In this document: positions 9,880 through 52,900 of the stretch, piece after piece
How positions within the stretch are numbered: the stretch's first letter is position 1
Layout: every line of letters starts with the position of its first letter
NCBI GenBank assembly: GCA_963931865.1
Contig: OZ007509.1
Coordinates: 14,716,048 to 14,780,047, forward strand
Direction: 5' to 3'
Length of the DNA: 64,000 nt
Origin: Axinella damicornis
Taxonomy: Eukaryota > Porifera > Demospongiae > Axinellida > Axinellidae
The notes under the pieces: model-generated
What the model was told of the DNA's origin: nothing
Seen by the model: the letters and a program-made list of their open reading frames with translations, nothing else
Database searches by the model: none
Position numbers and translations under genes: made by a program

Positions 9880-12800
9880 GTAAGTCAATGAGCTGTTGTG
9901 AATTGGATTTTAAATAGCATGCTCTAACAGATCATAATACATAATATTATGTGCTTGTTTGGCTGGGTACTTGCCTGGTGCTAGAAAATCTAGCTATAGC
10001 AATAGAATACCTCTGAAACCATTTTTCATATTTCGTGCAAGAGATAATGATAGCTGCACACGGGTGATTCACTGCTTCATGGAGTAGCTAGCTATGATGC
10101 ACTTTTTATTTACAGCTGCCAGCAATGATGATATCGGTCCTGGACTAGGCCACTGCAGAGCCATTTGGGGTCAGTCCTGTTAGCTATAGTTTCTCTGAGC
10201 TCAATAATAGATTTTGCTATACTCAATAGAGCTGTATCATAGAGTTGGTAGACTCTATATGTAGGGATACGACATACACCAGGGCCGGCGTAGCAGGGTG
10301 GGCCAGGTGGGCCATGGCCCACCCAATTCTCGGGCCAGGTAGCTAGTTGGTTGGGGGGTTTTTACCTGTCGCTCCATTGCGACATCGAGCATCGAGGCAA
10401 CATCGAGTGCTCAGTCGATCGACACTCGCACTCGTGATCGGGTCATAGCCTCGTTCCCAGGCACCTGGGAACGAAGCTAATAACTAGCTGCCGTTACATT
10501 GCAACTCCTGAACGGCTTGGGAATGAGACCACGTATAGCTACATGTAAGTACGTATTACGTTGCGCGAGCAAAATTTGAGCTAGTTCTGATCTTTTCACA
10601 TAATGCATGTATAATGTAGGGGGTTGTATACTGTACTGTTTTGCCAGCAATAAAAACAAAAACATTACAGGATGTAGGGATACCAGAACGAAAAAAAAGT
10701 GAGGAAACAAGGAATGGATGATCGAACATAACAGTGAAGCATACATCCCCCCTACAGAGATCTTTTTCCATAATACGTGTATAATGAAGAAAGATGTGTA
10801 GGAGGATTGTAAACTTCACTGTTTTGTGCGATCACTGTAAGTTTTGTGCGATCATCCAGCTCCACACCACTCTTAATCAACCAGCTCAAGAGTGGTATGA
10901 ATAACTGAGAGACAATTTGTTTCGTGCTAATACCACGGTGAGTACTTTAACAAATCTCAATATATTTTTGGCTGAAGAAAGTCAGAACAAAAATGGCTAT
11001 TTTGCTATGGTACACTTTTGTAGCTGTAGAATTGTCTTCCACGATACTCTTGGGCAACGTTTTGAGGTTATAAAATCACTCAAAGATGAAGCTGGGTGCT
11101 TATATGAGCTCATAACACCATTCGTAGTTGAGTTTTATGACTTTTGCTTATTAGCCAACCCCACAGAATTCTTTAGAGTAGCTATACATTTTCATGCCTT
11201 CAGTGCAGACCACCTTTGTACTCCTCTCACACAGCTTACGCTCCTCAAGGGCCAGACTTAGTGGGGCTAGCACACATGGAGAGCCCCCTCTGCCAATACC
11301 CATCATTCATGACCACCCACAAGCCCAGCAACTGGATCGAGTCAAAAGTGGATGTCAGCCAGAATTTTGCCCAGGATCTCCCTAAACTTGGACCGTAGCA
11401 CATCGTACACCATCAACCTGCATGTTTTCTTGAGGACCCCCTAAGGCCCTCAGTGGGGTCTATGAATCTCATTAAGATCAAAAATGCCGTGGGGGCTGTG
11501 CCCCCTAACCTCCCCTCCCCCCCCCCCCCCCCCCCCCCTCCCCCCCCCCCCCCCCCCCACAAACCAAAGGGTTAAAGTATTATTACGTGTCTGTGGTATC
11601 CCTGCATATAGAGTCTACCAACTCTATGATGCTATCTTCCCTACCTTGTTTCCTTGCCCTTTTTTGCCGTTCCACTACATTTCTATGATATTTTTTGTAT
11701 TCCACATGTTCTTTATCATGCTTGAGCTTAGCCTGTGCAAATCAAGAAAATAGCATTGCAAGTGAAACCATAGTTTTTGAGTGGGTGGTTTCAAGTGCCT
11801 CTTGCACTTCAAAGTTGTGAAAAAGCGGTGCATGGGGTTTGTAGCTACACTGGTTCAGTACTTTTGCAATGCTTTTTCGTGACATTGATGGGAGTCTTAA
11901 TTCTTGGTCAGGAAAATACTCAAAGATGAATGGTATGTCATCATAAAGGCTTACATGTTGCCCATTTTTGAGACTGAGTATTATCTATAGTGCGCGTCCG
12001 CTCTATCCCTACATATAGCTAGAGTCTACTGATTCCATCCATTTTGCTTTGGGTCTGCAAGGTCGGGCCTACCCAGGCATCGCATGCCCAGGCATCTCTG
12101 CATAATCTCAGTCACGGTTTTCCTAAACATGCTCAAGCTCCATGCGTGGAACGAACCTGGAAGACTTGTCAAGGGCCTATAGGGGTAGAACAAAACATTC
12201 CACCAGCCAAAACACTTCGTGTACTTTGTACCAAAAGGCAGAGATGACTCGCCCGAGTCTTGTGACCAATCAAGTGAGTGGCCACAGTCTGGACTGGATT
12301 ATACTTACTTAGCTCTACCACACTAGCTGGTTCATAGCCACTGGCGGATCCAGGGGTACTTCGTTGAGTTCGGTCGAACTACCCAGAATTATACCCACAA
12401 AATATCGTACACTACGTATCGACCAGTGGCGGATCTAAGGGTGCGAGCGAACCCCCCTTTTGACCCTTGTTAACATAAACTACTTGCATTATTGGGGCGA
12501 GCCTGAGCGAGCCCCACATAGACGTGTAAAACGGAATCCGTGTCTGTATGTCTGTATGTATCGTACGTATACCGTAAATAAACGATTCTGCAAATAACCG
12601 AAAGTCCCTTGCGTCATGATAATTCACACGTGCTCAGCGCTCGATCGTTGCAACGTACTGTTCTGAGACTCAGAGAGGCACGAATTCGTGAACGGTGTAT
12701 TTCTTGGATGGCTACATGTACAACAGGGACGGAGACCACCGTCACGAATCTACCTCTTCAATGGATACAGCGATGCGCGCTACCCGGCGTACAGCAACAA

Positions 12801-18800: not shown

Positions 18801-19362
18801 CATTAATACTTTTTAACATTGAAGTAATAGTAATTACCTGGTACTTTCACGAAGCTCTTTAATACTTTATTGTCGTTAATGTGTTAACCCATGAGTTAAG
18901 TATATGTCATTGAGTTATCTACCGGAATTTTATCACTAGAGAGGAGCCTTTAACCCTTTAACCACCGAATTCTTCCCACCAAAACAACACATTTTCATGC
19001 ATTCAGCGCACACCACTTTCGTAGGTACTCCTCTCCCACAGCATTCGCTCCTCAGCGGCCAAACTTGGTGGGGCCCGCACACATGGAGAGACCCCTCTGG
19101 CAATACCGTTAATGATATTCATAACCCCCCACAAGCCCAGCAATGGGAGGTCAAAGGTGGATGTCAGCCGGATTTTCACCCAGCATTTCCCTAAACTTGG
19201 GCCAGATCTCACTGATGGCACACCTTACACCACCAATTTCTTGAGGCCCTGGGTGGGGTCTATGAATATCATTAGAATCAAAAATTCTGGGGTCAATGAA
19301 TCTCATTAAAATCAAAAAACGCCCACGACATGCGAAGGGGGGCTGCCGCCCCCCCTTTCGAT

Positions 19363-19399
<37 letters not shown>

Positions 19400-21704
19400 C
19401 TTGTACGTTTAGTGGGGGAGGCGTGCCGAAATCTGATCAAATTTTTGAGTTCATCCCTCAAAGTCGTCCCTAGGCCCTCTGAAGCCTTTTTGGTCTCTTT
19501 TTGGACTGACGAGAAGCCCTACAAGTGCATAGGGTCTAAATGACGTCTATAGACGTCAATGGGGCTTAAAGGGTTAATACAAGTTGCAAACAAACTCCTT
19601 CTTGCATGCAGATGGGTGCCAGTCCAGGACCAATCAAATTGCTCCAGGGGCTGACATATACTTCAGCTGGAATGAATCAGAGATAGGCAGCCATTCCTTT
19701 CACCCTTGCCCCTGCAAAGACATAATTGAAGCTCCAGCTAATGCCACAATAAGCCGCAGGTGTGGAGGGACGTACAGCAGCAGAGGAAGATGGGATGAGG
19801 TGGAATACAGCCAGTGCTTTACAAACATCACTCTAAAGCTCTGTGAAGCAAGTCTAGTGAGTGGTTATCCTTGTCTATATGTGATAATCAACTAGGATAA
19901 TGTCATAAACTGCAAATGAAAAACATTTCATCTGCTTTCTGATACATACCATACAGTTTTCAGGATCACCTCAAGCTCTTGCTGAAACAGTTGCGACCAT
20001 TACTAACGATTTTATGAGCTTTCAACCCAGTGACGTGTCTGTTACTGCCACACTCATCGGAAGTCTGACACAGGATGCAGTACAGGACCCTGAGGTATTT
20101 TTTTCCTAGTAAGGTACCTAAAGGTACCTCCTCCCAGCACCAATCTCCAATAGTTACGAGTTGGAATTGAATCACCTTCCACACACCTTGAGGCGAGGGT
20201 GTAATTGCATACCTTGTTTGTCTTACAATTAAATGCACACGCATTCTCAGGTGAGAGTCAATTATCTAAATTGTATCGATAACCTGCTACGGGCCAATTC
20301 TAGCGTCATTCGAGAAAGCCAAATGCAGTCAAATACTTCATCAAGGTATGTGGCTACTCATCAGTATATTCATGAGGGGCATACAATTATGAGTAAGACT
20401 TAATTCATACTGCAGGCTGCTCGAGAGCTTCACAGTGTTCAGTGACAATGTGCCCCTTCAAAATGATTCCAATGCCACAACTTTCACCCGCAAAACATTC
20501 GCTCTGCTTGTCAAAGAGGTTGATGTTATGACGTTCAATGATGAAACCTTGTTCATTAACCTGGGAACAGTGGAAGAAGCTACTAACACTAGCAGCGAGC
20601 AGATTGACCCAAATTCACTTGTAGTGAGCACATCTAATATTGCCAACACAAGTGTAGTAACAACTGCTGAAGTTGAAGTACCACAGACAGCTCTCAGTGA
20701 CGAGGGCAAACCAGCACAGAGACTCAGCTACACAGTGTTTGCTAATGACAGCTTGTTCCAGTCTGCAGAGGAAACACAGAATAACATTGCACTGGGATCC
20801 ATTGTGGTGTCGGTACGAGTGAATGTGTCTAACAAATTGCCGAATCCCATTCGAATCACCTTCTTGATTAACAGGGTAGGTTGTTGCTAAGCAACTGGGA
20901 AACACTAGTCGTTAGTTACTAATTTGCTGTTGTATTTGTCATTTTCATCAGCTAATTGAGAATGCAAGCAGGGCCATCTGTGCAGAATGGAACACAAGTA
21001 GGTATTCTTAACTACACCTTCATTCATCTTAGTGAACAACATTATTATTAGCCTCGTTCCCAGTCGCTTGGCAATTACCGAGCGCCTGCATGGGAACGAG
21101 GCTACATTATTATGTCATAGGTTGAAGACACATGGTCTAGCGGTGGAATCGATTTATGTATACTTCTTGGACTACACACATCTGAATAAAAGTTTATCTA
21201 GGTCATACATGACGAACTCTAGCACTAGTTTCTGTTCAGCTGTGAGTATACATGTATGTACATGCACTCGACCTTTAAATTTGAAGCGTTTCTCAATCTT
21301 TGGCTTCAGAGATACCGTTTAAAGTGATGTTTGTGCGAACTTACATACTGTTGTATAAGCTAATTTACTAATACGCAAATGATGTTGTCAATAATTCTGC
21401 TATGCAGGTGGACCTGGGGCATGGTCCAACAACACATGCACAGTGGCCGGAAGGAACAGTGATAGTGACCACAGAACTTATGTCCAGGCAGAATACTTTC
21501 GACCAGGCCACTTCAGCATCCTTTTGGTAAGCATATTTCAGTAGAGAGTCTGAGTCCATGAATAACTGGATGCTTCTCATTGCACTGCAGGATCTGAACC
21601 CAAGTCTCAGTCCTTCCTCGTTTGCTCTGCAAGCCATTTCTTACATTGGTCTGATAGTGTCTCTTGTATGCCTCACTGCCTTCATTGTCACTTATGCAAC
21701 CTAA
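3533..21704 (+). CDS. Gene B: Reeler/SMB/Ig/EGF adhesion-GPCR paralogue, stop codon after TM1
   Basis: Twenty-five exons can be joined in one frame: 3533-3770, 7453-7610, 9323-9411, 9714-9771, 9840-9879, 10116-10169, 14788-14943, 15014-15325, 15452-15505, 15663-15821, 15989-16294, 16483-16794, 16858-17175, 17454-17582, 17966-18235, 18369-18439, 18529-18590, 18658-18794, 19612-19856, 19957-20094, 20251-20345, 20416-20875, 20952-20997, 21408-21526, 21591-21704. They total 4140 nt (1379 aa plus TAA). Domain order with rough residues: signal peptide 1-25, Reeler-like to 190, SMB1 212-264, Ig1 265-368, SMB2 387-439, Ig2-Ig4 440-751, EGF 752-794, Ig5 795-884, linker, hormone-receptor motif 975-1056, GAIN/GPS to 1342, TM1. 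The TAA at 21702-21704 sits exactly at the splice junction where the paralogue reads TCA AA, so a 2-bp loss is inferred. The product would be a single-pass receptor or a pseudogene product. The exon 6 donor (GTCAGT) is the weakest call. Confidence 0.82.
4660..4805. repeat. Single-arm copy of the 5428-5972 palindrome
   Basis: The stretch from GATCATGTAAGAGGGGTGTA to the GAATAAGTAGTTGGTACAC end repeats, in order, the right arm at 5798-5978. It is a diverged copy or a partly deleted element. Confidence 0.55.
5428..5972. mobile_element. Long-arm palindromic MITE
   Basis: The left edge GTACTAACTACTTATTCTAT and the right edge ATAGAATAAGCAGTTGGTAC are inverted copies. The arms run inward to the paired GATCATGTAAGAGGGACGTA near 5798 and its complement near 5685. 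The left arm is interrupted by the hairpin MITE at 5486-5579. Confidence 0.6.
5486..5579. mobile_element. Hairpin MITE (TAGCCTCGTTCCCA family), near-perfect 94-bp palindrome
   Basis: The arms pair almost base for base around GCAGTACTGC. The flanking 9-bp direct repeats are AAGAGGCAG at 5477-5485 and 5580-5588. It sits inside one arm of a larger palindrome whose other arm lacks it, so the insertion is directly visible. Confidence 0.85.
7611..9322. other. Gene B intron 2
   Basis: No exon was recognised. It contains a copy of the ATCATAGAG.TGGTAGACTC repeat at about 7652-7690, a MITE at 8068-8574 and an abutting weaker inverted repeat: AAGGGCGCAT near 8579 pairs with ATACGCCCTT near 9045. Confidence 0.5.
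8068..8574. mobile_element. MITE with TACCGTAT ends
   Basis: It begins TACCGTATTTTCATGG and ends CCCGCTATACGGTA, giving short terminal inverted repeats (TACCGTAT). Subterminal ATTTTCGTGG on the left and CCACGAAAAT on the right are also inverted. No clean target duplication is visible beyond TA-rich flanks. Confidence 0.5.
11191..11560 (+). mobile_element. Diverged, truncated copy of the piggyBac-like MITE
   Basis: The order of segments matches the MITE unit in the 37850-44250 array: an ACTCCTCTC.CACAGC block, a CACACATGGAGAG block, GTGGATGTCAGCC, CTAAACTTGG, GGTCTATGAATCTCATTA and a poly-C tail. There are many substitutions and no intact TTAA ends. It is an older member of the family. Confidence 0.7.
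11513..11558. repeat. Poly-C tract
   Basis: About 45 bp consist almost wholly of C, at the position where the related MITE units carry a C-run. Confidence 0.9.
12491..13157. mobile_element. MITE copy 1, GGGGCGAGCCTGAGCGAG ends
   Basis: ATTGGGGCGAGCCTGAGCGA on the left and CTCGCTCAGGCTCGCCCC on the right are terminal inverted repeats. It is nested within the hAT-like element. Confidence 0.65.
13314..13796. mobile_element. MITE copy 2, same family
   Basis: It has the same terminal inverted repeats as the copy at 12491-13157 in the same orientation, but a shorter interior with an (AT)n run at about 13368-13386. Confidence 0.65.
13925..14014. repeat. Three tandem 30-bp repeats
   Basis: Three consecutive copies of a 30-bp unit beginning GTTACTTAGTCAATC and ending TTTGCGTCTGGG differ at one base (T or G). 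They translate as repeated LLSQSSLRLG, but lie in an intronic transposon and are not taken as coding. Confidence 0.9.
14788..17175 (+). CDS. Gene B exons 7-13: SMB1, Ig1, linker, SMB2, Ig2, Ig3, Ig4
   Basis: SMB exons 14788-14943 and 15663-15821 each have the eight-cysteine somatomedin B spacing, with the CYCDE.C and CCRD signatures. Ig exons 15014-15325, 15989-16294, 16483-16794 and 16858-17175 each carry the first Cys, a Trp and a D.GTYTC or D.G.Y.C motif. Short linker exon 15452-15505 (P.LC.YEVPDP) resembles the one before SMB1. All are phase 1-1 modules, as expected for exon shuffling. The region would be the extracellular adhesive stalk. Ig3 (16483-16794) has no counterpart in gene C. 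Confidence 0.85.
17454..17582 (+). CDS. Gene B exon 14: EGF-like domain
   Basis: A single phase-1 exon gives six cysteines in EGF order (C..., [22 protein letters not shown]). The gene C equivalent starts with INEC, close to the calcium-binding EGF consensus; here it reads INGC, so calcium binding is less certain. Confidence 0.85.
17718..17912. repeat. Minisatellite (ACAACCACCACCC)n
   Basis: About 195 bp of imperfect 13-14-bp CA/CC-rich repeats lie in the intron between the EGF and Ig5 exons. The same intron in gene C is short and lacks it. Confidence 0.9.
17966..18794 (+). CDS. Gene B exons 15-18: Ig5 and juxta-GAIN linker
   Basis: Exon 17966-18235 is an Ig domain ([20 protein letters not shown], then EDRGYYHC). 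Exons 18369-18439, 18529-18590 and 18658-18794 encode about 90 residues with a VYQYS.KVELN strand and a later helix-rich part ([14 protein letters not shown]). The position between Ig and hormone-receptor motif would suit a SEA-like fold, but the sequence is not diagnostic. Confidence 0.75.
18950..19577 (+). mobile_element. Single piggyBac-like MITE in gene B intron 18
   Basis: It is flanked by TTAA at both ends. The ends read CCCTTTAACCACC and, from the other side, CCCTTTAAGCCCC. It is the same family as the array at 37850-44250 but carries a longer C-run (about 19366-19398) and a number of substitutions. Gene C's matching intron has no insertion and is 59 bp long, so this is a clean empty/filled pair. 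Confidence 0.85.
19612..21526 (+). CDS. Gene B exons 19-24: hormone-receptor motif, GAIN and degenerate GPS
   Basis: Exon 19612-19856 has the hormone-receptor pattern (C...HPCPC, W.. near the end and Y.QCF). Exons 19957-20094, 20251-20345 and 20416-20875 encode a GAIN-like region ending in [12 protein letters not shown], an [10 protein letters not shown] strand and [10 protein letters not shown]. Exons 20952-20997 and 21408-21526 give the GPS core CAEWN, W and C. Where HL-T/S is expected before the hydrophobic strand, the sequence is RPGHFSILL, and the usual C-x-C pair is absent. Autoproteolysis is therefore unlikely. Confidence 0.8.
21591..21704 (+). CDS. Gene B exon 25: TM1 exon ending in TAA
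   Basis: It encodes the segment after the GPS and TM1 ([20 protein letters not shown]) and then an in-frame TAA immediately before the GTAAGC donor. The gene C exon has two extra bases at this point and reads through into TM2. Confidence 0.85.
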   Translation, partial: DLNPSLSPSSFALQAISYIGLIVSLVCLTAFIVTYAT

Positions 21705-31900: not shown

Positions 31901-34900
31901 AGTAGATGAAACCCTGAGAGTTGTGAACGTTCGTGACTTCCCATTGGCCGCCATTGCTAGCTTTGTAGGTCTGAGCCTACAGGTTGTATGATTTCCTACG
32001 ATAATTGAGTCATCTGAGAATGGGCCCACTAGCTGCATGCTGCCAGTGTCCACTTCCCTTGCTGTGTCACTTAGCTACTTTGTTGTGTTGTGTCATTCTG
32101 CCCATTCATATATTGTCTTCAGGGGAAAATATCAGGAGTATAGCTTCATTTTGGCTCCACCTCTTCATGATCACAAATACTTAGCAGAGGAAGAGTGTGT
32201 TCACGGAGCAGATATACCCCAACACAATAATTATTGATTTCTAATGAGGTTTAATGCAAGTTAAACCAAGTTAACGTGGAGGGGAGGTCCACACGGCTCT
32301 AGCGTGTAGCGTGCACCGCCAATGCGGCCGCATATCAACGCATGCGCATAATTCAAAGGTATGTACGCGCTCGGCGGAGACTTGGTTAAAAGCAGCTGCA
32401 ACAGCACATAAACTCACTCTCTCAGAAGCTAGCTGCAGCCTATACAGCAGTCGCAGGCAGTTCTAACTCCCGTTCTTTTACCTCTGTCCCGAGTACGAGT
32501 ACGATGAGCTCCCCTTCGCCGCAACCAGCGTCGTCCGCGGAACTAACCGCGAAAGATGTCAGCGGAGCAACTACGAGTATTCCAACTCCAACCCGGGTCC
32601 TGACAATCGAAGAGCAGTTGAAGCTGACTTTGACATCGATGGCGGAGAAGGATCCAGCGTTTCTGAGTAAAATGATGCAGCACCAGACACCGGCGAGCGC
32701 TGTCGACGGTGCGCAATCTTCCTCCTCCACGGCGGGGAAAAAATCCGGTGAGTTGCACTCGCTGCCATCCCCCCCCCCCCCCCCCCCTTTCTTTCCCTGC
32801 ATGCTTTAGTGTCGGTAGAAAGTGCATTTTGTTCATTTAGTGTTCAGATTTGTTCCGCAGTCTCAAAAAAAAAACAAAAAAAAACTTACCATAGCGGGTA
32901 AGAAGACCGAGCGCCATGTTAACATTTGGTCTACTACACTGTTCATGAGACCGTTGTTCTAGCTTATCCGAGAAGCTAAGAGCGCCAAATTTGTGTTTAT
33001 AGTACACAGCTCCGTTTTGGGTCGCTTGGAACAACAAATCCGTTGTTGTGTTGTTGACGAAGTACCTGTAGACGCCCAGACCTTCGACGCCGCAGTGCTG
33101 CCCCTTGGCGATTAGACTTCGGCGGCGCGCGCTGAGCGAGCGTTAGCGCTCTGCGCTGCCTGAGGCTCTCACTGCTATGGCCTATACATGTATATAGGCG
33201 TAAACTCGTACACACACACACACACGCATACACACACAAACTCACAACCTCTCACACACACACACACCCTGTCACACACACATACACACTCACACCCCTT
33301 GTACACACACACACTCACACCACACACCTTCACATTCACACAACATACACATAGACACGACACAATACAATTTTTTTTTTTTTACATGCGCTCATACTGC
33401 TGTGCACACTTGGAATCGCACACAAGTACAGTCACATGCAGTGTTATGCACACGTACGCACACACACACACACACACTCACACATATGCTCACGCGCACA
33501 CATACTAACACATGCTATCACTGTCTTCATGCATTTAATTCCGGCATGCTTCTATGGCATGTATGGTGCGTTCTGGCCGCAGAGCCAGCCTCCATTGGGG
33601 AGTAGACCCTCATGGGTACATGTATGTGTGGCGTTATAGTATGGAGGAGTATAGGATTGAAGTAAGTCATCCTTCCTCCCTTGTAGGCAGTCCCTTGGGT
33701 GCGATGCCAAGTGCAGAAACCTTGGAAGTGGTTCCCCTGCCCACGGGCGGTGCGGCTGCACGCAAGGACCCAGTAGAAAGGGGCAAAGAGCCCATGAACA
33801 GCCAGCGCCCAGCAGCGAAGCTCGGGGCAAACAGCGAGAAGTCTGTGCCGGAGGACTCCAAGTCCGGCCCATTTGTCCTGGGGGAAGGCCTCCCCATTCT
33901 CCCGGCGAAGCTGACAGCTAAGATTCTCCGCGGCGAGTTCGTGGAGATGCACGAGCTACTTCAAGATAACATTGCTCTGGACAAAAAGGTTGCTGATGAA
34001 CTTACAACGTTGAACCAGGGCACCAAACAGAGCAAAAAACGCGAGCTAACGGAGGACGTGCATGGTCTGCTGAGTTGGGTTGAGTGCCAAGTTCAACTTG
34101 TTCTCCTCGGTGCTCCTATCCAAATATCCCAAACTGCACAAGGCACTCACTGCCTATCAATCGACGATTGTACGGGAAGCGCGCCGATTTGGCTTCCGTG
34201 GCTGGCTTCAATATGACCAACTTTTTCGCCAGCATGCCGCAAAGGACCCCGGCGAGACAGCCGCCTGGGGATCACTCAACAGTGCCCTATACGCCATATC
34301 CTTCTTGAGTCGGCAGCGAGGCGACACGCTCACATGCGCGAGTTGCATGAGCTCAGACCACGCCACCGGGCAATGCGCCCTGGCTCGCAGAGAAGACCCG
34401 TACTTCGCGAAGAGGAGGCCCCTCCTCCAGCGACCGTTGAACCCAAAGCGGGGTGTCGGTTCCAATTCCAAGACCTGCTATTCTTGGAACGACGGCAGGT
34501 GTGCCCGAGGAGCAGGGGCCTGCAACTTCCGTCACTGTTGCCTAAGGTGTGGCGACGACCATAAGATGGTCGACTGTCCCCATAAAGCCTCTTCCTCTTG
34601 CAGAGAGAAGGCTATCTGATCTCCTCACAAAAACTGAAACTGAAAACTGCCAGTAGCACTCATTATTCGTTATGCTCGTCCATGTCTCTTGTATGTTATG
34701 ACTTGGACCCCTCAGGGCAGTTCTGTGCTGTTATCATACAGGTCAAGTTGTGTTACCCCCAACATTATGATTCCACAGCCACATGCGCTCACTCACACTG
34801 ATGCATACAGTGTGAGTGTGCGCATGCAGTGTGAGTGTGCGCATTCATTGTGAGTGTGAGCAACCCACCCCCCCCCCCCTCACACACACACACACAAACA

Positions 34901-37900
34901 CACATTCACTCACACAAGCACTAGCTTATCGTAAATCGTAAAGGCAGGGCAGCTATACTGCTGCAGGAGGCCTGGACAGCATTCCAACACTGCAGGCAAG
35001 ACTTTGCCTGTCGCGGTACGAGCAAATTAAATGCTCACAATGGGCTACAGGCGGAACCTGGGACTGAGAGCTCTGTTAGAATTATCACCTATATCTACAG
35101 CTCTACTCTGGCATGTGCACATACTATCCACGGTCTATGTGACTGTATCTATCCTCTTTGCTTCCCCTTCCCCTCCCTCCCAATTGGTATAGGTAATCAC
35201 ATGGGGTTCGAGTGCAATTTGGGAAATAATTGCACGAGCAACAGGCAAAGTAATTGCACGAGCGATAGCGAGTGCAATTTATGACTGTTGTGAGTGCAAT
35301 TATTCCCAAATGGCACGAGAATACATGTGATTAAATACTAATCATGTACTTCCAGGCATGGCATGGTCGAAAGCAAGCGGCTTGAGCGATTAAAGCCACG
35401 CCCCAGCCACAAAAGCGCTCGAAGCGCGCGAGCGAACTACACGCTACTAGTACCGCTTATCTTATTCGCTCAGAGTACTGACCTGTTCTTCAGTTGTGTA
35501 GTGAAGCTTTAGGACGGAAGCGCGGTGTTGCAACTGACACCCCCAGGGTCCCAAAACAGCAGCACAGAGCCTGTGTGCGCATAACAGCCACGAACAGTAC
35601 GGCTGCAGCGCTACTAGCGCCACCGTTTCTGTGACAACACTTTCGCCACGCCATCGTTCGGTTCTCACAGCGTTTCTTCAGCTCAGGTACAGAAAGCTTA
35701 AACAACGCGAGCGCTCACACTGTACAGCCATTTTCAATTGTTGCTAATGAAAACGAGGCGTAGCCATGACGCGGACGCTCGTTGCTAGGGCGGAGCTTCA
35801 CCTGATTGGTTAGCGCGCGCCGCGGCCGCTTCGTAACCGTGCAATTTCTGACAGCCCTCGGGCTACAATAACCGTGCAATTTGGGAAAAAATTGCACACT
35901 TTTCTATGGGAGTAAATGTATGGCAACTATAATAAGTATGTGATTATCGTGATAACCAGCTGGAGGCTGCCCACCGAACGGCGAGTATAAATACATCTCA
36001 GACTTGATAGCCTTAGAGGGCAATGTTCCTTTTTCTCCTCGCAACCTGCCCCCCGCACTTACAGCAATTACCACCCCACTAAAGGCGGGGGCATGGAGAG
36101 ATGCTCTGAGCTCCCACCCAGACAGGAGCTTCTGTCAATACATCACAGAAGGCCTCGAGAGGGGTTTCCGGATAGGATTCAACTACACATCACATTCAAT
36201 ACGCAGCGTCAAAGGCAACATGTTGTCAGCTACCCAGCATCCCCAGGTAGTAACGGACTACATAACCAGGGAGTGCGCTGAGGGGAGGATGCTTGGGCTG
36301 GCGCAAGGAGACCAGATAGACGGGCTGCACGTCAGTCGCTTTGGAGTGATACCAAAGAAAAATCAACCAGGGAAGTGGAGACTCATCACGGACTTATCAT
36401 CTCCAGACGGAGCCAGCGTGAACGATGGGATTGACCCAGCATTCTGTTTCCTGGTCTAAGCATCAATCGATGATGCAGCAGCTCATATCCTCACTCTGGG
36501 AGGAGGGACTCTCCTGGCAAAGTTGGACATCAAAAGTGCTTATCGCACAGTCCCGGTACATCCTGACGATAGGCCCCTTCTCGCAGTGAAGTGGCAAGGA
36601 AAGGTCTACATTGATATGGCACTTCCTTTTGGCCTGAGATCAGCTCCAAAGATCTTCAACTCCATAGCTGATGCGCTGGAGTGGATCATTGCACAGGAAG
36701 TCACCGACCCAGTCCTCCACTACCTCGATGATTTCCTTTTCTTCGGAGCTCCCAAAACGGACAACTGCTACAAGGCCTTGCGCGCAGCCAAGGGTGCTTG
36801 CAGTACACTGGGTGCCCCTCTGGCAGAGGAGAAATCAGAAGGCCCAAGTGTAATGTTGCCATTCGTGGGCATAGAAATGGACACTGAGGCCCTTGAATTG
36901 TGGCTCCCAACAGAAAAATTGCTACGGCTAAAAAGCCTGCTGGCTTCATGGCAGGGTAGAAAGGCCTGCACGAAACGAGAGCTGCTGTCCTTGATAGGAC
37001 ACTTACAGCATGCGTGCAAAGTAGTCAAACCGGGCCGTACCTTCTTGAGGAGAATGATTGATCTGTCCACCACAACCACAGAACTGCACCATCACATCCG
37101 CCTCAATTTGGGATTTCGATCTGACATGTGCTGGTGGGCAACATTCCTACTGGGGTGGAATGGAGTGGGAATGCTCTCCACTCTGGGTCACCTAACTCCT
37201 CAAGCGACAGTGACCTCGGATGCTTCCGGCAAATGGGGGTGCGCCGCCTTTTGTGGCTCAGATTGGTTCCAGCTTCCGTGGCAGGGCAGATGGGAGGGGG
37301 TCCACATTACTATCAAAGAGCTCCTGCCAATCGTATTGGCAGGTGCAGTCTGGGGGAGACAATGGTCAGGGCTACGGATCCAATGTCTCTGTGACAATGC
37401 CGCAGTGGTGGCAATCGTCAATTCCGGGTCCAGCAAGCACCCACTGGTAATGCACCTGATGCGGTCACTTTTCTTCATCGCAGCCCACTTCAAGTTCACA
37501 CTTGTTGCTAGCCATATTCCGGGCAAAGCTAATCAAGCTGCAGACGCACTATCCCGGGATAATTGTCCATCCTTTCTCTCCCTTGTGCCTCAGGCCAATG
37601 CGCACCCGACTCCGATACCACCAGAACTCCTTCAACTGCTGCTGCTCCGCAAGCCAGACTGGACATCCGACAGTTGGAGACAGATGTTCAGTTCTACTAT
37701 TCAAAAGGTTTAGCAAAATCCACCCTTCGTGCGTACCAGTCAGGCAAATGCCGATACACCAAGTTCTGTATAGAGGCTGACATCAGCCCATTGCCTGTAT
37801 ATCCGAACAGCATCTATGTTTATTTGTATCGTTTGTAGCTAAGCAAGGATTAACCCTTTAACCACCGAATTCTTCCCACCAAGACAACACATTTTCATGC

Positions 37901-40900
37901 ATTCAGCGCACACCACTTTCGTAGGTACTCCTCTCCCACAGCATTCGCTCCTCGGCGGCCAAACTTGGTGGGGCCCGCACACATGGAGAGACCTCTCTGG
38001 CAATACCGTTAATGATATTCATGACCCCCACAAGCCCAGCAATTGGAGGTCAAAGGTGGATGTCAGCCGGATTTTCGCCCAGCATTTCCCTAAACTTGGG
38101 CCAGATCTGACTGATGGCACACCTTACACCACCAATTTGCAGGTTTTCTTGAGGCCCTGGGTGGGGTCTATGAATATCATTAGAATCAAAAATTCTCGGG
38201 TCAATGAATCTCATTAAAATCAAAAAACGCCCACCACAGGCCGAAGGGGGGGCTGCCGCCCCCCCTTCGAAACCCCCCCGCTTGTACGTTTAGTGGGGGA
38301 GGCGCGCCGAAATCTGACCAAATTTTTGAGTTCGTGCCTTAAAGTCGTCCCTAGGCCATCTGAAGACTTTTTGGTCTCTTTTTGGACTGGCGAGAAGCCC
38401 TACAAGTGCATAGGGTCTAAATGACGCCTATAGACGTCAATGGGGCTTAAAGGGTTAATGAGATTCATAGTTGGTGAGAATGGGCCCTCAAAACGGCCTA
38501 GACTTGCACTGTGAGCCAGTTTGGGATAGTTTGCCGATTTTTAATGAGATTCATTGATCCTCCATGCACATATTAACCCTTTAACCACCGAATTCTTCCC
38601 ACCAAGACAACACATTTTCATGCATTCAGCGCACACCACTTTCGTAGGTACTCCTCTCCCACAGCATTCGCTCCTCGGCGGCCAAACTTGGTGGGGCCCG
38701 CACACATGGAGAGACCTCTCTGGCAATACCGTTAATGATATTCATGACCCCCCACAAGCCCAGCAATTGGAGGTCAAAGGTGGATGTCAGCCGGATTTTC
38801 GCCCAGCATTTCCCTAAACTTGGGCCAGATCTGACTGATGGCACACCTTACACCACCAATTTGCAGGTTTTCTTGAGGCCCTGGGTGGGGTCTATGAATA
38901 TCATTAGAATCAAAAATTCTCGGGTCAATGAATCTCATTAAAATCAAAAAACGCCCACCACAGGCCGAAGGGGGGGCTGCCGCCCCCCCTTCGAAACCCC
39001 CCCGCTTGTACGTTTAGTGGGGGAGGCGCGCCGAAATCTGACCAAATTTTTGAGTTCGTGCCTTAAAGTCGTCCCTAGGCCATCTGAAGACTTTTTGGTC
39101 TCTTTTTGGACTGGCGAGAAGCCCTACAAGTGCATAGGGTCTAAATGACGCCTATAGACGTCAATGGGGCTTAAAGGGTTAATGAGATTCATAGTTGGTG
39201 AGAATGGGCCCTCAAAACGGCCTAGACTTGCACTGTGAGCCAGTTTGGGATAGTTTGCCGATTTTTAATGAGATTCATTGATTCTCCATGCACATATTAA
39301 CCCTTTAACCACCGAATTCTTCCCACCAAGACAACACATTTTCATGCATTCAGCGCACACCACTTTCGTAGGTACTCCTCTCCCACAGCATTCGCTCCTC
39401 GGCGGCCAAACTTGGTGGGGCCCGCACACATGGAGAGACCTCTCTGGCAATACCGTTAATGATATTCATGACCCCCCACAAGCCCAGCAATTGGAGGTCA
39501 AAGGTGGATGTCAGCCGGATTTTCGCCCAGCATTTCCCTAAACTTGGGCCAGATCTGACTGATGGCACACCTTACACCACCAATTTGCAGGTTTTCTTGA
39601 GGCCCTGGGTGGGGTCTATGAATATCATTAGAATCAAAAATTCTCGGGTCAATGAATCTCATTAAAATCAAAAAACGCCCACCACAGGCCGAAGGGGGGG
39701 CTGCCGCCCCCCCTTCGAAACCCCCCCGCTTGTACGTTTAGTGGGGGAGGCGCGCCGAAATCTGACCAAATTTTTGAGTTCGTGCCTTAAAGTTGTCCCT
39801 AGGCCATCTGAAGACTTTTTGGTCTCTTTTTGGACTGGCGAGAAGCCCTACAAGTGCATAGGGTCTAAATGACGCCTATAGACGTCAATGGGGCTTAAAG
39901 GGTTAATGAGATTCATAGTTGGTGAGAATGGGCCCTCAAAACGGCCTAGACTTGCACTGTGAGCCAGTTTGGGATAGTTTGCCGATTTTTAATGAGATTC
40001 ATTGATTCTCCATGCACATATTAACCCTTTAACCACCGAATTCTTCCCACCAAGACAACACATTTTCATGCATTCAGCGCACACCACTTTCGTAGGTACT
40101 CCTCTCCCACAGCATTCGCTCCTCGGCGGCCAAACTTGGTGGGGCCCGCACACATGGAGAGACCTCTCTGGCAATACCGTTAATGATATTCATGACCCCC
40201 CACAAGCCCAGCAATTGGAGGTCAAAGGTGGATGTCAGCCGGATTTTCGCCCAGCATTTCCCTAAACTTGGGCCAGATCTGACTGATGGCACACCTTACA
40301 CCACCAATTTGCAGGTTTTCTTGAGGCCCTGGGTGGGGTCTATGAATATCATTAGAATCAAAAATTCTCGGGTCAATGAATCTCATTAAAATCAAAAAAC
40401 GCCCACCACAGGCCGAAGGGGGGGCTGCCGCCCCCCCTTCGAAACCCCCCCGCTTGTACGTTTAGTGGGGGAGGCGCGCCGAAATCTGACCAAATTTTTG
40501 AGTTCGTGCCTTAAAGTCGTCCCTAGGCCATCTGAAGACTTTTTGGTCTCTTTTTGGACTGGCGAGAAGCCCTACAAGTGCATAGGGTCTAAATGACGCC
40601 TATAGACGTCAATGGGGCTTAAAGGGTTAATGAGATTCATAGTTGGTGAGAATGGGCCCTCAAAACGGCCTAGACTTGCACTGTGAGCCAGTTTGGGATA
40701 GTTTGCCGATTTTTAATGAGATTCATTGATCCTCCATGCACATATTAACCCTTTAACCACCGAATTCTTCCCACCAAGACAACACATTTTCATGCATTCA
40801 GCGCACACCACTTTCGTAGGTACTCCTCTCCCACAGCATTCGCTCCTCGGCGGCCAAACTTGGTGGGGCCCGCACACATGGAGAGACCTCTCTGGCAATA

Positions 40901-43900
40901 CCGTTAATGATATTCATGACCCCCCACAAGCCCAGCAATTGGAGGTCAAAGGTGGATGTCAGCCGGATTTTCGCCCAGCATTTCCCTAAACTTGGGCCAG
41001 ATCTGACTGATGGCACACCTTACACCACCAATTTGCAGGTTTTCTTGAGGCCCTGGGTGGGGTCTATGAATATCATTAGAATCAAAAATTCTCGGGTCAA
41101 TGAATCTCATTAAAATCAAAAAACGCCCACCACAGGCCGAAGGGGGGGCTGCCGCCCCCCCTTCGAAACCCCCCCGCTTGTACGTTTAGTGGGGGAGGCG
41201 CGCCGAAATCTGACCAAATTTTTGAGTTCGTGCCTTAAAGTCGTCCCTAGGCCATCTGAAGACTTTTTGGTCTCTTTTTGGACTGGCGAGAAGCCCTACA
41301 AGTGCATAGGGTCTAAATGACGCCTATAGACGTCAATGGGGCTTAAAGGGTTAATGAGATTCATAGTTGGTGAGAATGGGCCCTCAAAACGGCCTAGACT
41401 TGCACTGTGAGCCAGTTTGGGATAGTTTGCCGATTTTTAATGAGATTCATTGATTCTCCATGCACATATTAACCCTTTAACCACCGAATTCTTCCCACCA
41501 AGACAACACATTTTCATGCATTCAGCGCACACCACTTTCGTAGGTACTCCTCTCCCACAGCATTCGCTCCTCGGCGGCCAAACTTGGTGGGGCCCGCACA
41601 CATGGAGAGACCTCTCTGGCAATACCGTTAATGATATTCATGACCCCCCACAAGCCCAGCAATTGGAGGTCAAAGGTGGATGTCAGCCGGATTTTCGCCC
41701 AGCATTTCCCTAAACTTGGGCCAGATCTGACTGATGGCACACCTTACACCACCAATTTGCAGGTTTTCTTGAGGCCCTGGGTGGGGTCTATGAATATCAT
41801 TAGAATCAAAAATTCTCGGGTCAATGAATCTCATTAAAATCAAAAAACGCCCACCACAGGCCGAAGGGGGGGCTGCCGCCCCCCCTTCGAAACCCCCCCG
41901 CTTGTACGTTTAGTGGGGGAGGCGCGCCGAAATCTGACCAAATTTTTGAGTTCGTGCCTTAAAGTCGTCCCTAGGCCATCTGAAGACTTTTTGGTCTCTT
42001 TTTGGACTGGCGAGAAGCCCTACAAGTGCATAGGGTCTAAATGACGCCTATAGACGTCAATGGGGCTTAAAGGGTTAATGAGATTCATAGTTGGTGAGAA
42101 TGGGCCCTCAAAACGGCCTAGACTTGCACTGTGAGCCAGTTTGGGATAGTTTGCCGATTTTTAATGAGATTCATTGATTCTCCATGCACATATTAACCCT
42201 TTAACCACCGAATTCTTCCCACCAAGACAACACATTTTCATGCATTCAGCGCACACCACTTTCGTAGGTACTCCTCTCCCACAGCATTCGCTCCTCGGCG
42301 GCCAAACTTGGTGGGGCCCGCACACATGGAGAGACCTCTCTGGCAATACCGTTAATGATATTCATGACCCCCCACAAGCCCAGCAATTGGAGGTCAAAGG
42401 TGGATGTCAGCCGGATTTTCGCCCAGCATTTCCCTAAACTTGGGCCAGATCTGACTGATGGCACACCTTACACCACCAATTTGCAGGTTTTCTTGAGGCC
42501 CTGGGTGGGGTCTATGAATATCATTAGAATCAAAAATTCTCGGGTCAATGAATCTCATTAAAATCAAAAAACGCCCACCACAGGCCGAAGGGGGGGCTGC
42601 CGCCCCCCCTTCGAAACCCCCCCGCTTGTACGTTTAGTGGGGGAGGCGCGCCGAAATCTGACCAAATTTTTGAGTTCGTGCCTTAAAGTCGTCCCTAGGC
42701 CATCTGAAGACTTTTTGGTCTCTTTTTGGACTGGCGAGAAGCCCTACAAGTGCATAGGGTCTAAATGACGCCTATAGACGTCAATGGGGCTTAAAGGGTT
42801 AATGAGATTCATAGTTGGTGAGAATGGGCCCTCAAAACGGCCTAGACTTGCACTGTGAGCCAGTTTGGGATAGTTTGCCGATTTTTAATGAGATTCATTG
42901 ATTCTCCATGCACATATTAACCCTTTAACCACCGAATTCTTCCCACCAAGACAACACATTTTCATGCATTCAGCGCACACCACTTTCGTAGGTACTCCTC
43001 TCCCACAGCATTCGCTCCTCGGCGGCCAAACTTGGTGGGGCCCGCACACATGGAGAGACCTCTCTGGCAATACCGTTAATGATATTCATGACCCCCCACA
43101 AGCCCAGCAATTGGAGGTCAAAGGTGGATGTCAGCCGGATTTTCGCCCAGCATTTCCCTAAACTTGGGCCAGATCTGACTGATGGCACACCTTACACCAC
43201 CAATTTGCAGGTTTTCTTGAGGCCCTGGGTGGGGTCTATGAATATCATTAGAATCAAAAATTCTCGGGTCAATGAATCTCATTAAAATCAAAAAACGCCC
43301 ACCACAGGCCGAAGGGGGGGCTGCCGCCCCCCCTTCGAAACCCCCCCGCTTGTACGTTTAGTGGGGGAGGCGCGCCGAAATCTGACCAAATTTTTGAGTT
43401 CGTGCCTTAAAGTCGTCCCTAGGCCATCTGAAGACTTTTTGGTCTCTTTTTGGACTGGCGAGAAGCCCTACAAGTGCATAGGGTCTAAATGACGCCTATA
43501 GACGTCAATGGGGCTTAAAGGGTTAATGAGATTCATAGTTGGTGAGAATGGGCCCTCAAAACGGCCTAGACTTGCACTGTGAGCCAGTTTGGGATAGTTT
43601 GCCGATTTTTAATGAGATTCATTGATTCTCCATGCACATATTAACCCTTTAACCACCGAATTCTTCCCACCAAGACAACACATTTTCATGCATTCAGCGC
43701 ACACCACTTTCGTAGGTACTCCTCTCCCACAGCATTCGCTCCTCGGCGGCCAAACTTGGTGGGGCCCGCACACATGGAGAGACCTCTCTGGCAATACCGT
43801 TAATGATATTCATGACCCCCCACAAGCCCAGCAATTGGAGGTCAAAGGTGGATGTCAGCCGGATTTTCGCCCAGCATTTCCCTAAACTTGGGCCAGATCT

Positions 43901-46900
43901 GACTGATGGCACACCTTACACCACCAATTTGCAGGTTTTCTTGAGGCCCTGGGTGGGGTCTATGAATATCATTAGAATCAAAAATTCTCGGGTCAATGAA
44001 TCTCATTAAAATCAAAAAACGCCCACCACAGGCCGAAGGGGGGGCTGCCGCCCCCCCTTCGAAACCCCCCCGCTTGTACGTTTAGTGGGGGAGGCGCGCC
44101 GAAATCTGACCAAATTTTTGAGTTCGTGCCTTAAAGTCGTCCCTAGGCCATCTGAAGACTTTTTGGTCTCTTCTTGGACTGGCGAGAAGCCCTACAAGTG
44201 CATAGGGTCTAAATGACGCCTATAGACGTCAATGGGGCTTAAAGGGTTAAAGCACCAGACTATAAAATGCTACTTGTCAGCTGTTCGTCATTTACAGATA
44301 TCCAACGGCTTTAAAGACCCATTTACGGGCGAGCAGGACCCGCCTGCCTATAACTCCCGCTCTATTATCCAAGATGAGGGAAGTATGGGGAGATTCGAGT
44401 GTAGGCACGGAAGTAACCATGATTTGGGCAGCATGCTGTTTAGCTTTCTTTGGGTTCCTTCGTCTTGGGGAGCTTACAGTCCCGTCAGACAAAGAGTATG
44501 ACCCTCAGACCCATCTTGGCCTAACAGATAACTCATTTGATCATCCAATATGCCCATCCAGAATGGCAGTGGTAATAAAACAATCAAAAACTGATCCCTT
44601 CAGGAAAGGAGTGACCCTGAGCTTAGGAAGAACCTCCAACAAGCTTTGCCCGGTGGCAGCAATGGCCGCGTACTTAGTGAAACGAGGCCAAAGACCAGGG
44701 CCACTCTTTCAGTTCCAAGATGGTCGGTTTCTCACACGCCAGCGTATGGTGGATTACGTTCAAGAAGCGTTACACACGGCAAAGGTTGAGGCGAGCTCCT
44801 ACAACGGTCACAGCTTCCGTATAGGAGCAGCAACCACAGCGGCTGCGAAAGGTCTGAAAGACTCGCTCATCAAGACCTTGGGACGGTGGGAAAGCACTGC
44901 ATATCTGCGGTATGTTCGCATTCCAAGAGAACAACTTGCAAGCTACACTAGTATACTTGCATCCTGATCATCTGTGTTTCCTCTTTTTTATACTGCCATT
45001 CCTTTATCTATGGACATGTTCAGGTGGAAATGCTGTACTAATCATGCTGAACGCGTTCAACACGGTTACGCACAGGCTCTTACAATGGGTGCCTGGGGGG
45101 ATAAAAACTTGCAAGTTTTTTTCCTCCTTGGGCCAGGGTGGAGGTGTACCCTCCACTCCTAATTGAATTATCCTCCCAGGCACCAGGTTTTTTTACCTGG
45201 ACAAGGATATCCCAATTTCTGTACTTCCGCCAAACCACACGGACTATGCATCCGTGGCATCATCGGGACGAAGAAGGGCTACGGGACCACACCAGGTCAG
45301 CTCTGTGGTGGGTGGTACCGACAAACGTTAAATGAGCAAGTTAAACCAAGTTAACGTGGAGGGGAGGTCCACACGGCTCTAGCGTGCGCCGCCAATGCGG
45401 CCGCATATCAACGCATGCGCATAATTCAAAGGTATGTACGCGCTTGGCGGAGACTTGGTTAAAAGCAGCTGCAACAGCACATAAACTCACTCTCTCAGAA
45501 GCTAGCTGCAGCCTATACAGCAGTCGCAGGCAGTTCTCCCACCCACCCAACTCCCGTTCTTTTATTTTAATTTTCAATTCCCCTCCGTCGGGTTCTACCC
45601 GACGTGATCGGTACGGAATTGGGCCAGGGTGGAGGTGTACCCTCCACTCCTAATTGAATTATCCTCCCAGGCACCAGGTTTTTTTACCTGGACAAGGATA
45701 TCCCAATTTCTGTACTTCCGCCAAACCACACGGACTATGCATCCGTGGCATCATTGGGACGAAGAAGGGCTAAGGGACCACACCAGGTCAGCTCTGTGGT
45801 GGGCGGTACCGACAAACGTTAATCTCATTTAAGATTCATTCTATAGCACCTCTAGCTCTGAGTCTAATAACATCTCTAAATTGCACATGATGCATGTGAC
45901 CAATCATTATGGAGTGGATGTCATTGCAATTCACTTTGTGATCGTGAAGAGGTGGAGCCAAATATTAAAAATAAAATAACCGGTGAGAATAACAGCCTTG
46001 ACTTGTATCAGGTATGTACACTATTAGTGTACACATAATATTTTATAGAACAGAATACAATGTGACAGCGTAGCTATTTTCAGAAGAGAATGCGCTTGCA
46101 GTGAAATTTGAAGTACTTGCAAAGTCATCAAGACGTCTGAACCATAGGTAGCCTGTAGATTGATCTCATAGCTAACTCAGAGCAGCTTGACCACACGACC
46201 CTGCACTGCAGCAGACCAGTCCCAAGGGTAGAAGGCCCATTCCTCCCAGAAACTCTGCCACATGCAGCTGCCATCCAGTATAGCTACAAGACACAACCAT
46301 CTACAGTTGCTCCAGTTGTGTATAGCCATAACTCTGAGCTACCCATTCCAAACAAAATTCCACACACACTCACTAACTCGAACCAACTAAATCCGAGCCC
46401 ATTTTCTGAAAGGTCATCTTACCCCTGCAAAACTAAGTCAACTTTCTTTGGCCAGGGAACTGTTGGATGCCATTTCATTTTCCAGGCTGGTCTTCGACCT
46501 CTTGAGCAGCCTCACAAACATTTGTACTTACTCTAGCAAGCTATTCACGCTCAACTAGACAATCATCACATTCAATAAGCTATACAAGCTCCGTTCCATC
46601 TCTAAAGTGTTGTATACGAGTTCTTCAAAAGTTCTGCTGAACTGCATTAAAGCACCGACAGAGCCCACTTCAAAGGGCCACTTTCCTCATCGAAGGGAAA
46701 CACCCCTAAGTTACCACCATGGGAAGAAAGCCATGATTGTAAATAGTGCCATTGTGGTCATGTGACATCATTAATTATTCATAAGTCAGAATTGAACCAA
46801 TGCAATAAACAGGAGCATCCTGCATGTTTATAGCCTGTTCCATAGACCATGTAAGAGAGATATATGTACAGCATTCCCATGTGGTGCCTAGAGTAACCAT

Positions 46901-49900: not shown

Positions 49901-52900
49901 CCTTGCCTTGCTTTTATGGAAACGTTTGTTCTTTATGAAGCATGACAGAATTTGATGGAGTGACTCTTTGGAATGGTGGATGGTAGACATGTTTGTCCAT
50001 TCTCTTCATGGTACTTACCAGTCAGGTATGCATCATGCATCTTCTGGTTAGTTTGCAGTGTTGCCCCCACATTCACCTACATGAGCACTGCTGTTAACAT
50101 GTTGTGCAGAGGTCTGACAGTCGCTATGACACCTCCGTTCGTGTTAGCGTAGTGCAGCACAAGACAGTTCCCTCTTCACGGACATGCTTGTCTCAATCAC
50201 TACATCTGCATGAGTCCGGTGTAGCTCCTTACTCTGACTAGTTCGTCACTAGCCACCTGAACATGCACATGCAGCTACACTTATGCTTAGGTGTCAGGAT
50301 AAGTTACTAATGTAGGGCTTATTCAGGCTCTCACCAACGAGCAAGGTTCAAAATAACCATAACGTTATAGCGGTTATTCTGTTTTCAGTGAACTCCCATG
50401 CGCTGCAAAGGCAGGTTACACTAGCAGAGAATCAATTACATTTCTGGTTAATGAGCCAAACAATGGATACATCAGATGGATGCATAACTAACTGGCTGAG
50501 TAGCTACCAAGCACGTGCATACTCTGCTGAAATTTGGTGTGCAGTGGTTATGAGATATACCATTGGATGCTGTGAAGATCAGCTGCACAAGTACTATAGG
50601 GCACATGAACTCATCATACATCCAGTTGCAAGCATTCTTTTTGATGAAAAACCTTGCAGATGGTAATTGCAGTATTTAGCTAAGTCTTTTTCTCTCAACC
50701 TAATGATGATCATGGCCTACAACCAAGAAGTATACCTGACTGAGGAAGTCCAAATTTAGTGTGGAGTGGTCTCTCAATTAATGTTTTGTAGCCTGACCTT
50801 TGACCTTGGTTCTGGAAAACCAAGTTTTGAATTCCAACTTTATTTACAAAGACCTTGAACCTACATGTGTTTATTCACCAAGTTTTAATTTGGGACAACA
50901 ATGGGAACAGCAGCTATAGACCAAAATGTAGTAGCATGAATACAAAAAACGTACACATGCTACTTCATTTTGGTCTATAGTTGCTGTTCCCATTGTAGTC
51001 CCAAATTAAAACTTGGTGCATAAACACATTTAGGTTCAAGGTCTTTGCAAAAAAAGTTTGAAAAAAATCAAAACTTCCGTTTTTCCAGAACCAAGGTCAA
51101 AGGTCAGATTACATAACCTTTGAACTTTGAATAGATCAAACGTCAAACTATTATATGCCAAATGAAAGAGCCTTTCAAGAGCTTCGAGAAAATCCTTGTT
51201 GCAACTCTCTACGTTGATCACATCAGAAGATATGGGTATTTCAGTCATGGCACACTGTCTAAAATGGGCACCTGAAGCCAAAATTAAATTTGTTGCAGTT
51301 GAAAAGCTATAGCAGTTCAGAAGCTGAAGTTTGGTGTGCAGTGGTTTCTTAATAGAACTAACAGGCTCACCAAGTTTCGTCAAAATCGGAAGAGGTCAGG
51401 ATTTTTTTGTGTTGACTTGACACGGAATGACCCACATTCAACATCTTGACCCTCAATACCTAGCCTCGTTCCCAGTCCCACGCCCAGCTTTTCGTTGCTG
51501 GGCATGGGACTGGGTACGAGGCTACTCAATACCAGTGTGGGAGGAATTTTGTTGGTATTATGACAAAAATATTATGGTAATCTGTGATCCAGTGATAGTC
51601 TTTCTTCTTACAACTTCAATTCTGCTTCCACCAGCACCTGCCAATATTGTGGTAGCTCCTATGAACACAGTAGTGTGTGTTTCCTTCAATGCTGTGTTCA
51701 CTTGTGAGGCCTTTGGAGTTCCCACACCAACAATCTCGTGGAATCTACCTGATGGTACTGCAGTATCTGCGACATCTGGAAGTGGGATTGGCATGCTGTA
51801 CCCTCGCATTACTGCTGAGACCAGCACCTCAGAATCATCTGCATACCGTATGATCTCAAGGCTGTCTGTCAGCGATACTGAGCTAGGAGATGCAGGGACA
51901 TATACCTGTGTTGCAACAAATGGAGTAGAGAATCTGATTGGAGCCACTGGCACTGCAACTGCCACCCTGACTGTGCAAGGTATTAAGGTCATGCTAACAA
52001 CTAACTAGAGGAACTTCAGTTTCACTGTGTTTTTACATACATTGGGTTTGATTACCTTTTACACTCACGTAGATATTGACTAGTTGCTACATTGTACGCT
52101 GAGTTGCTGGTTACGGTGCATGAGATTTTCACACTCGGCATGTATGTGGAGTTTACTGTAGTTAGTTTCAGATGTCTGTCCTTTCTGTGCACCCTAACTT
52201 TCAAACTGCATAGCTAGTTGAGGTTCGCGATACCTTGGAAATGTGAATGTCTCACTACGGATTGTATCTGCATTATGGAGTTTCAATATTTAGGAAGTTG
52301 CCACGTCATAAGCTAGTGTGTAGCATAGAACTGTGAATGTGCACACTGTGGCGTGAACTTAATTCACTCAATAGCTACCAGGCACCCCACACCAATTCTT
52401 TCATAATTCACTATGGACAGATAGCTTCATCCCTAACCTCATTCCCAAGTCATTCCTAACATTATTGCATTCCCAGGCCATTCCTATAGTCACACTCACA
52501 AGCCATTCCTATAGTCTCATTCCCAGGCCATACAATGCTTGTTGTCTGTTTAGTTTTCACAGTACATTGTCCAATTGATGTTTGTCACACAGCCTCTTGC
52601 ATAATGTACAAGCTTTGCACTTCATAAGCCCATGTGCTATATTTCTTGCAAAGATCTGGTTAGCACTAGCTACTCAGTTCAAGTACAGGACTAAATCTGA
52701 TTGAATTTAGCCTCGCTGTATGTGTACAGATCCAGTGTTTTATTCTATACATGCAGTTCCGGTGGAAGTGCAAGTTCATGGGTACAACACAATCACAGAA
52801 TTTCAGTCACTGGTGATTTCCTGCAAGGCAGCGGGTTATCCTCTTGCTACAGTACAATGGTTTAGGAATGGTGATAACCTGGATGTACTAAGGAGCAACC

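Follow-up and report, generated by a model that had tools for sequence, protein, structure and literature searches.

How does a short DNA transposon come to stand nine times over, with the same passenger between its copies, inside a retroelement? The question is raised by a 64,000-nucleotide stretch of the sponge Axinella damicornis (contig OZ007509.1, positions 14,716,048 to 14,780,047; hereafter the window). Positions 37850-44250 of the window hold nine TTAA-bounded copies of a miniature inverted-repeat transposable element (MITE; 609 or 610 bp, here called M) alternating with eight 114-bp linkers (here called L), which lie between TTAAs. The array starts and ends with M and has a period of 724 bp, with a first spacing of 723 bp. 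We think it likely that an M-L-M composite transposed as a unit, that arrays grew in situ from such composites, and that single MITEs later left them. An earlier note on this DNA had described the same alternation of nine MITEs and eight linkers with a MITE at both ends, and a unit-by-unit comparison agrees with it. The units are:

37850..38458, + strand: M1, 609 bp including both TTAAs, without one C (unit comparison)
38459..38572, + strand: linker L1, 114 bp, C variant (linker comparison)
38573..39182, + strand: M2, 610 bp (unit comparison)
39183..39296, + strand: linker L2, T variant (linker comparison)
39297..39906, + strand: M3, one C>T (unit comparison)
39907..40020, + strand: linker L3, T variant (linker comparison)
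40021..40630, + strand: M4 (unit comparison)
40631..40744, + strand: linker L4, C variant (linker comparison)
40745..41354, + strand: M5 (unit comparison)
41355..41468, + strand: linker L5, T variant (linker comparison)
41469..42078, + strand: M6 (unit comparison)
42079..42192, + strand: linker L6, T variant (linker comparison)
42193..42802, + strand: M7 (unit comparison)
42803..42916, + strand: linker L7, T variant (linker comparison)
42917..43526, + strand: M8 (unit comparison)
43527..43640, + strand: linker L8, T variant (linker comparison)
43641..44250, + strand: M9, 610 bp including TTAAs, one T>C (unit comparison)

Throughout the 6.4-kb array, single-base differences number five and affect four unit positions: a C is missing from M1, M3 carries C>T, M9 carries T>C, and in linkers 1 and 4 a C stands where the other six (2, 3, 5, 6, 7 and 8) have a T.

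The array as a whole fills one insertion site. The outermost TTAAs had been matched to a single TTAA of the host element, and in the other four copies of this host region that were found (L098-L101) the sequence does run uninterrupted through a single TTAA, GCAAGGATTAAAGCACC. That TTAA is in frame within a recombinase-like reading of the host copies. Within the stretch fetched, this reading stays open in L098 and L100 and has stops elsewhere in the other two. The idea that the codons resume after the array is therefore right, but the frame of the window's own host copy is also shifted, independently, by a 2-bp insertion just upstream of the array, absent from the four relatives. The window copy also lacks 66-69 bp downstream of the array that these relatives have. 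Its repeats are laid out as split direct repeats, A1-B1-A2-B2, the arrangement that defines Ngaro-type elements; together with the reverse transcriptase, they suggest a Ngaro/DIRS-like retroelement. The site and its host are made up as follows:

37850..37853, no strand: left target-site TTAA of the entire array (empty site in four other host-element copies)
44247..44250, no strand: right target-site TTAA of the entire array (empty site in four other host-element copies)
32307..45822, + strand: host retroelement, Ngaro/DIRS-like, its probable extent taken from its own repeats (repeats, domain matches)
32307-32471 and 45380-45544, + strand: host 165-bp repeat (repeat comparison)
45128-45331 and 45619-45822, + strand: host 204-bp repeat (repeat comparison)
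36523-37713, + strand: host reverse transcriptase (match 1.1e-11)
44374-44967, + strand: host recombinase piece (weak Phage_integrase match, 0.0031, below the cut-off)

The genome searched comprised 226 Mb in 120 contigs. The 5' end of M has 1311 matches in it (up to 2 mismatches), and these are not chance, since a reversed-pattern control gave 0. Both ends of M read CCCTTTAA with a CCYT motif, and its inverted repeats are perfect over 8 bp and imperfect thereafter. Empty sites of M-containing units show that TTAA is duplicated at the target. From these features M appears to be a non-autonomous, TTAA-inserting, piggyBac-like MITE, for which we infer a transposase; the mobilising piggyBac element would then itself end TTAACCCTTTAACC. 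Two further members of the family lie in the window:

18950..19577, + strand: dispersed single full M, 90.6% identical, TTAA at both ends (alignment)
11186..11485, + strand: old relative of M, 75.6% identical over query positions 40-345 (alignment)

The first is just the single same-family MITE that the earlier note had placed there. The second, which it gave as an old copy at 11191-11560, is indeed a relative of M, with a match that ends at 11485.

The linker behaves differently. Its core has 297 genome matches, and genome-wide M-L junctions number 190 and L-M junctions 233 (up to 3 mismatches allowed in all three counts). Most Ms therefore stand without L, and L is found chiefly in the company of M. 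It had been allowed that the linker might always occur inside the dispersed MITE, so that the unit would simply be a longer element; this is rejected because most Ms have no linker (1311 M 5' ends against 190 and 233 junctions). The genome-wide search proposed for a single-copy linker donor found a dispersed linker instead, with its 297 core matches and solo copies as well. A left flank shared by four loci, considered as donor context, turned out to belong to a dispersed repeat into which an L-M pair had inserted. On inspection of its sequence, L has neither CCYT ends nor inverted repeats. It has TTTTAATGAGATTCATTGA in common with the interior of M in inverted orientation (score 43 in the alignment, against a maximum of 39 in 200 shuffles), so the passenger may derive from a related repeat.

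The fetched loci take the forms MLM, M(LM)n, ML, LM, solo L, LL, MLLM (L077) and LLLML (L045). A census was taken of the 68 linker cores on contigs C1-C4 (0 or 1 mismatch) among the 100 of 297 cores listed. Judged by exact junctions, 32 of these cores have M on both sides, 20 on one side and 16 on neither. When doubtful loci were read by hand and M positions were used, with L076 dropped and three paralogues of one repeat counted as one, 54 loci remained: M stands on both sides in 34, on one side in 14 and on neither in six. The last six (L010, L012, L020, L032, L069 and L071) hold L or LL with TTAA on both sides. The locus that was dropped, L076 (C4:6442500-6445300), consists of a tandemly repeated 1440-bp unit (inverted M, L, L and M), which formed after an M inserted at a TTAA inside another M end.

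Does M-L-M move as one unit? M-L-M stands at many unrelated TTAA sites (34 of the 54 loci just counted), as would be expected of the composite transposition that the earlier note had put forward. M and L keep one relative orientation in 42 of 43 loci where they are adjacent, the exception being the nested L076, and in all 14 one-sided loci on C1-C4. In 39 of the 45 L-bearing loci with fetched borders, the cluster as a whole has a TTAA at either end. Among 44 L-bearing loci compared over both 200-bp flanks, with paralogues of the dispersed repeat left out, no two match on both sides, and some single flanks share repeats. Smaller clusters also fill single sites. One TTAA of the dispersed repeat holds an L-M pair, with the left junction seen in four filled copies and the right in one (L088); three of the five other fetched copies show the empty site and two diverge there. 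At L015 an L-M pair sits at a single TTAA in one unit of a local tandem repeat, and the units next to it are empty. At C1:12980200-12980900 (L103, L088), what appears to be a second TTAA element, with ends CTCTTTACCAACC and GGTTAGTAAAGAG, sits in an internal TTAA of the M end within the L-M pair of the dispersed repeat.

Between loci, linker distances and M distances show a modest correlation: over 39 loci r=0.33, a value attained by 5 of 2000 permutations, and when six divergent loci are set aside r=0.25, attained by 6 of 2000. The single-TTAA occupancy, the flanks, the constant orientation and this co-variation of haplotypes fit an L-carrying composite better than independent arrival, and the last two also support the earlier proposal of a composite that moved as a unit.

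The arrays then seem to have grown where they stand. When 106 Ms were placed in a tree, 89 of them from L-bearing loci and 17 solo, the units of one locus mostly clustered together; in 17 of the 21 multi-M loci besides the window array, every M is nearer to its locus mates than to any M sampled from elsewhere. Linkers differ by 0.0022 within loci and by 0.0335 between loci. Some arrays carry a locus-private variant in every linker, for example L028, L037 and L045 among the aligned loci; such filling of single arrays agrees with the growth by local exchange that had been suggested. The T variant of the window array is present in six of its eight linkers and absent from the linkers of all other aligned loci, and its scattered distribution could result from step-wise local duplication. 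Two pairs of related loci show stages of growth: one divergent composite is present as two units on C3 and as ten on C5, with 99.6% identity over 1335 bp, and the window array has a relative on C8 that is a plain L-M pair, its M 100% identical to M2 of the window and its linker 99.1%. A third locus, on C14, was considered as a sister of the window array and rejected (linker 96.5% identical to that of the window; M match of 162 bp at 94.4%).

The word satellite, used for the window array in the earlier note, suits the homogenised head-to-tail repeats and overstates their length. Among the 100 of 190 M-L junctions listed (exact matches on contigs C1 to C7), there are 66 loci: 49 hold one junction, 12 hold two, two hold three, and one locus each holds four, eight and nine, the last two being the largest. 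The longest array seen among these placed junctions has ten units. Such arrays recur genome-wide; this recurrence was absent from the earlier note, as were the scars described below.

Linkers are in places joined to each other by a single TTAA: in LL (L020), in MLLM (L077), where two linkers with a common private variant meet at one TTAA between two Ms, and in LLLML (L045), where three of four identical linkers, all with a private variant, are joined by single TTAAs. At most ML and LM loci a TTAA stands at the free end. Precise departure of M would explain the L-L joints and would be the source of these scars. If each side lost its M independently at a single rate of 0.24, one would predict 31.1, 19.7 and 3.1 loci with M on both sides, one side and neither, in rough agreement with the observed 34, 14 and 6.

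The following course of events is proposed. Two Ms in the same orientation would have flanked 114 bp of other DNA, now L, at one ancestral site. A transposase using the outer end of each M would have moved M-L-M as one composite, which would then have spread to many TTAA sites. Near-identical 610-bp Ms permit unequal exchange when they pair, and some copies would therefore have grown to 3-10 units, the window array being a grown composite copy inside a retroelement. Later, single Ms would have departed at TTAA; MLM would thereby have become ML, LM or L, and MLLM or LLLML would be what is left of longer arrays. The structure itself, its dispersal, the uniform orientation, the empty sites and the expansion private to single loci are seen in the sequence, while the transposase, the movement of the composite, unequal crossover as the form of exchange and precise excision as the origin of the scars are deduced. 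Taken as a whole, this course of events may well be the equivalent, in a eukaryote, of a bacterial composite transposon, one in which a MITE pair disperses a fixed 114-bp passenger, seeds satellite-like arrays and leaves passenger scars.

Several observations weigh against this course of events. The loci were fetched mostly from best matches, and the sample leans to young copies. The Ms of composites do not form one clade in the tree, where the composite label changes 13 times; composite and solo Ms are interspersed, with at least seven changes forced by well-supported branches, and a single composite origin therefore needs either repeated departure of M or several composite origins. At L076 the M beside L faces the opposite way. 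In four of the 21 multi-M loci (L013, L021, L033 and L047) the Ms are not mutually closest, and L077 pairs a 97.7% M with a 90.5% M. The independent-loss fit is imperfect (chi-square 4.57, with an excess of loci without M), and the L-L joints could be tandem duplications of L instead of traces of M loss.

A rival reading makes L a TTAA element that moves on its own and, like MSITE or CMITE-IN elements, has no terminal inverted repeats; L and M would meet through insertion of each at the other's bordering TTAA. The six loci of 54 with L or LL, no flanking M and TTAA on both sides would then be ordinary insertions, loci without M would be allowed to stand somewhat above the independent-loss expectation, as they do, and L-M pairs at single TTAAs would follow as well. 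Neighbours that arrived separately should show both relative orientations, yet orientation is uniform in 42 of 43 loci, including all 14 one-sided loci on C1-C4; L lacks CCYT ends and inverted repeats, linker and M haplotypes co-vary, and at least one M is present in 48 of the 54 loci. We regard an independent L as unlikely.

An origin of the arrays from extrachromosomal M-L circles recombining into resident single Ms seems more improbable still. It would account for M at both array ends, for the single orientation and for the unlike Ms at L013 and L077, but the resident and incoming halves of M should then differ, and the Ms within a locus are mostly near-identical and group by locus. That the array is an artefact of assembly is hardly credible, given position-specific variants along the window array and similar arrays at other loci, several with private variants of their own.

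Elsewhere in the window, open frames at 963-1850, 23239-24156 and 58236-59240 match secretin-family seven-transmembrane receptors, and frames at 16488-17186 and 51427-52008 match immunoglobulin domains. The receptor frames are possibly a tandem receptor gene family.

Arguments on how transposons turn into tandem repeats usually start from the finished product. In the present genome the lone element, the two-unit composite, arrays of 3-10 units and decayed remains seem to exist side by side, so that one can test directly whether composite transposition, local expansion and loss followed in that order. If the composite origin is true, DNA caught between two MITEs can spread genome-wide. In the macrotransposons of maize, two linked Ac/Ds elements mobilise, by their outer ends, the DNA that separates them; here a MITE pair would do so with a single short passenger that is the same at many loci. 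A literature search, mainly of titles and abstract openings, recognised no dispersed MITE-passenger-MITE composite.

MITEs are known to yield tandem repeats in other ways. The satellites Xstir and miDNA4, as their accounts outline them, arise from sequence inside a MITE (PMC9659126, PMC12628747), unlike the whole MITEs alternating with a passenger seen here, and tandem hAT MITEs are described from cod (PMC12368964). Acropora corals have tandem arrays of CMITEs, piggyBac-type elements with TTAA duplications, one array having gaps, for which the authors inferred replication slippage (Wang et al. 2010, PMC2872659). Those arrays resemble the present ones in their tandem piggyBac-type MITEs and in inter-element sequences that are highly similar, and the end of CMITE family II, CCCTTTAAGCCCTA (Table 1, PMC2872659), equals the 3' end of M at 13 of 14 letters; CMITEs are about 100 bp long, unlike the 610 bp of M. 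Kinship between M and the CMITE core is unsupported, one family end resembling the 3' end of M notwithstanding: the best score of the 60-mer internal core in M is 29 (sharing CCCCATTGACG), below the maximum of 32 in 200 shuffles. CMITE-IN, as described there, is likewise bounded by TTAA and owes its formation to a MITE that inserted at a TTAA, and its authors inferred it to be mobile; in it the MITE lies inside a direct-repeat element, whereas here the passenger lies between two MITEs (PMC2872659). The main points of the Acropora account include no dispersed fixed-passenger composite and no MITE-loss scars in arrays (PMC2872659). The tandem CMITE arrays of Acropora are the nearest precedent, and what the sponge adds to them is a dispersed composite, its scars and an expansion that can be traced.

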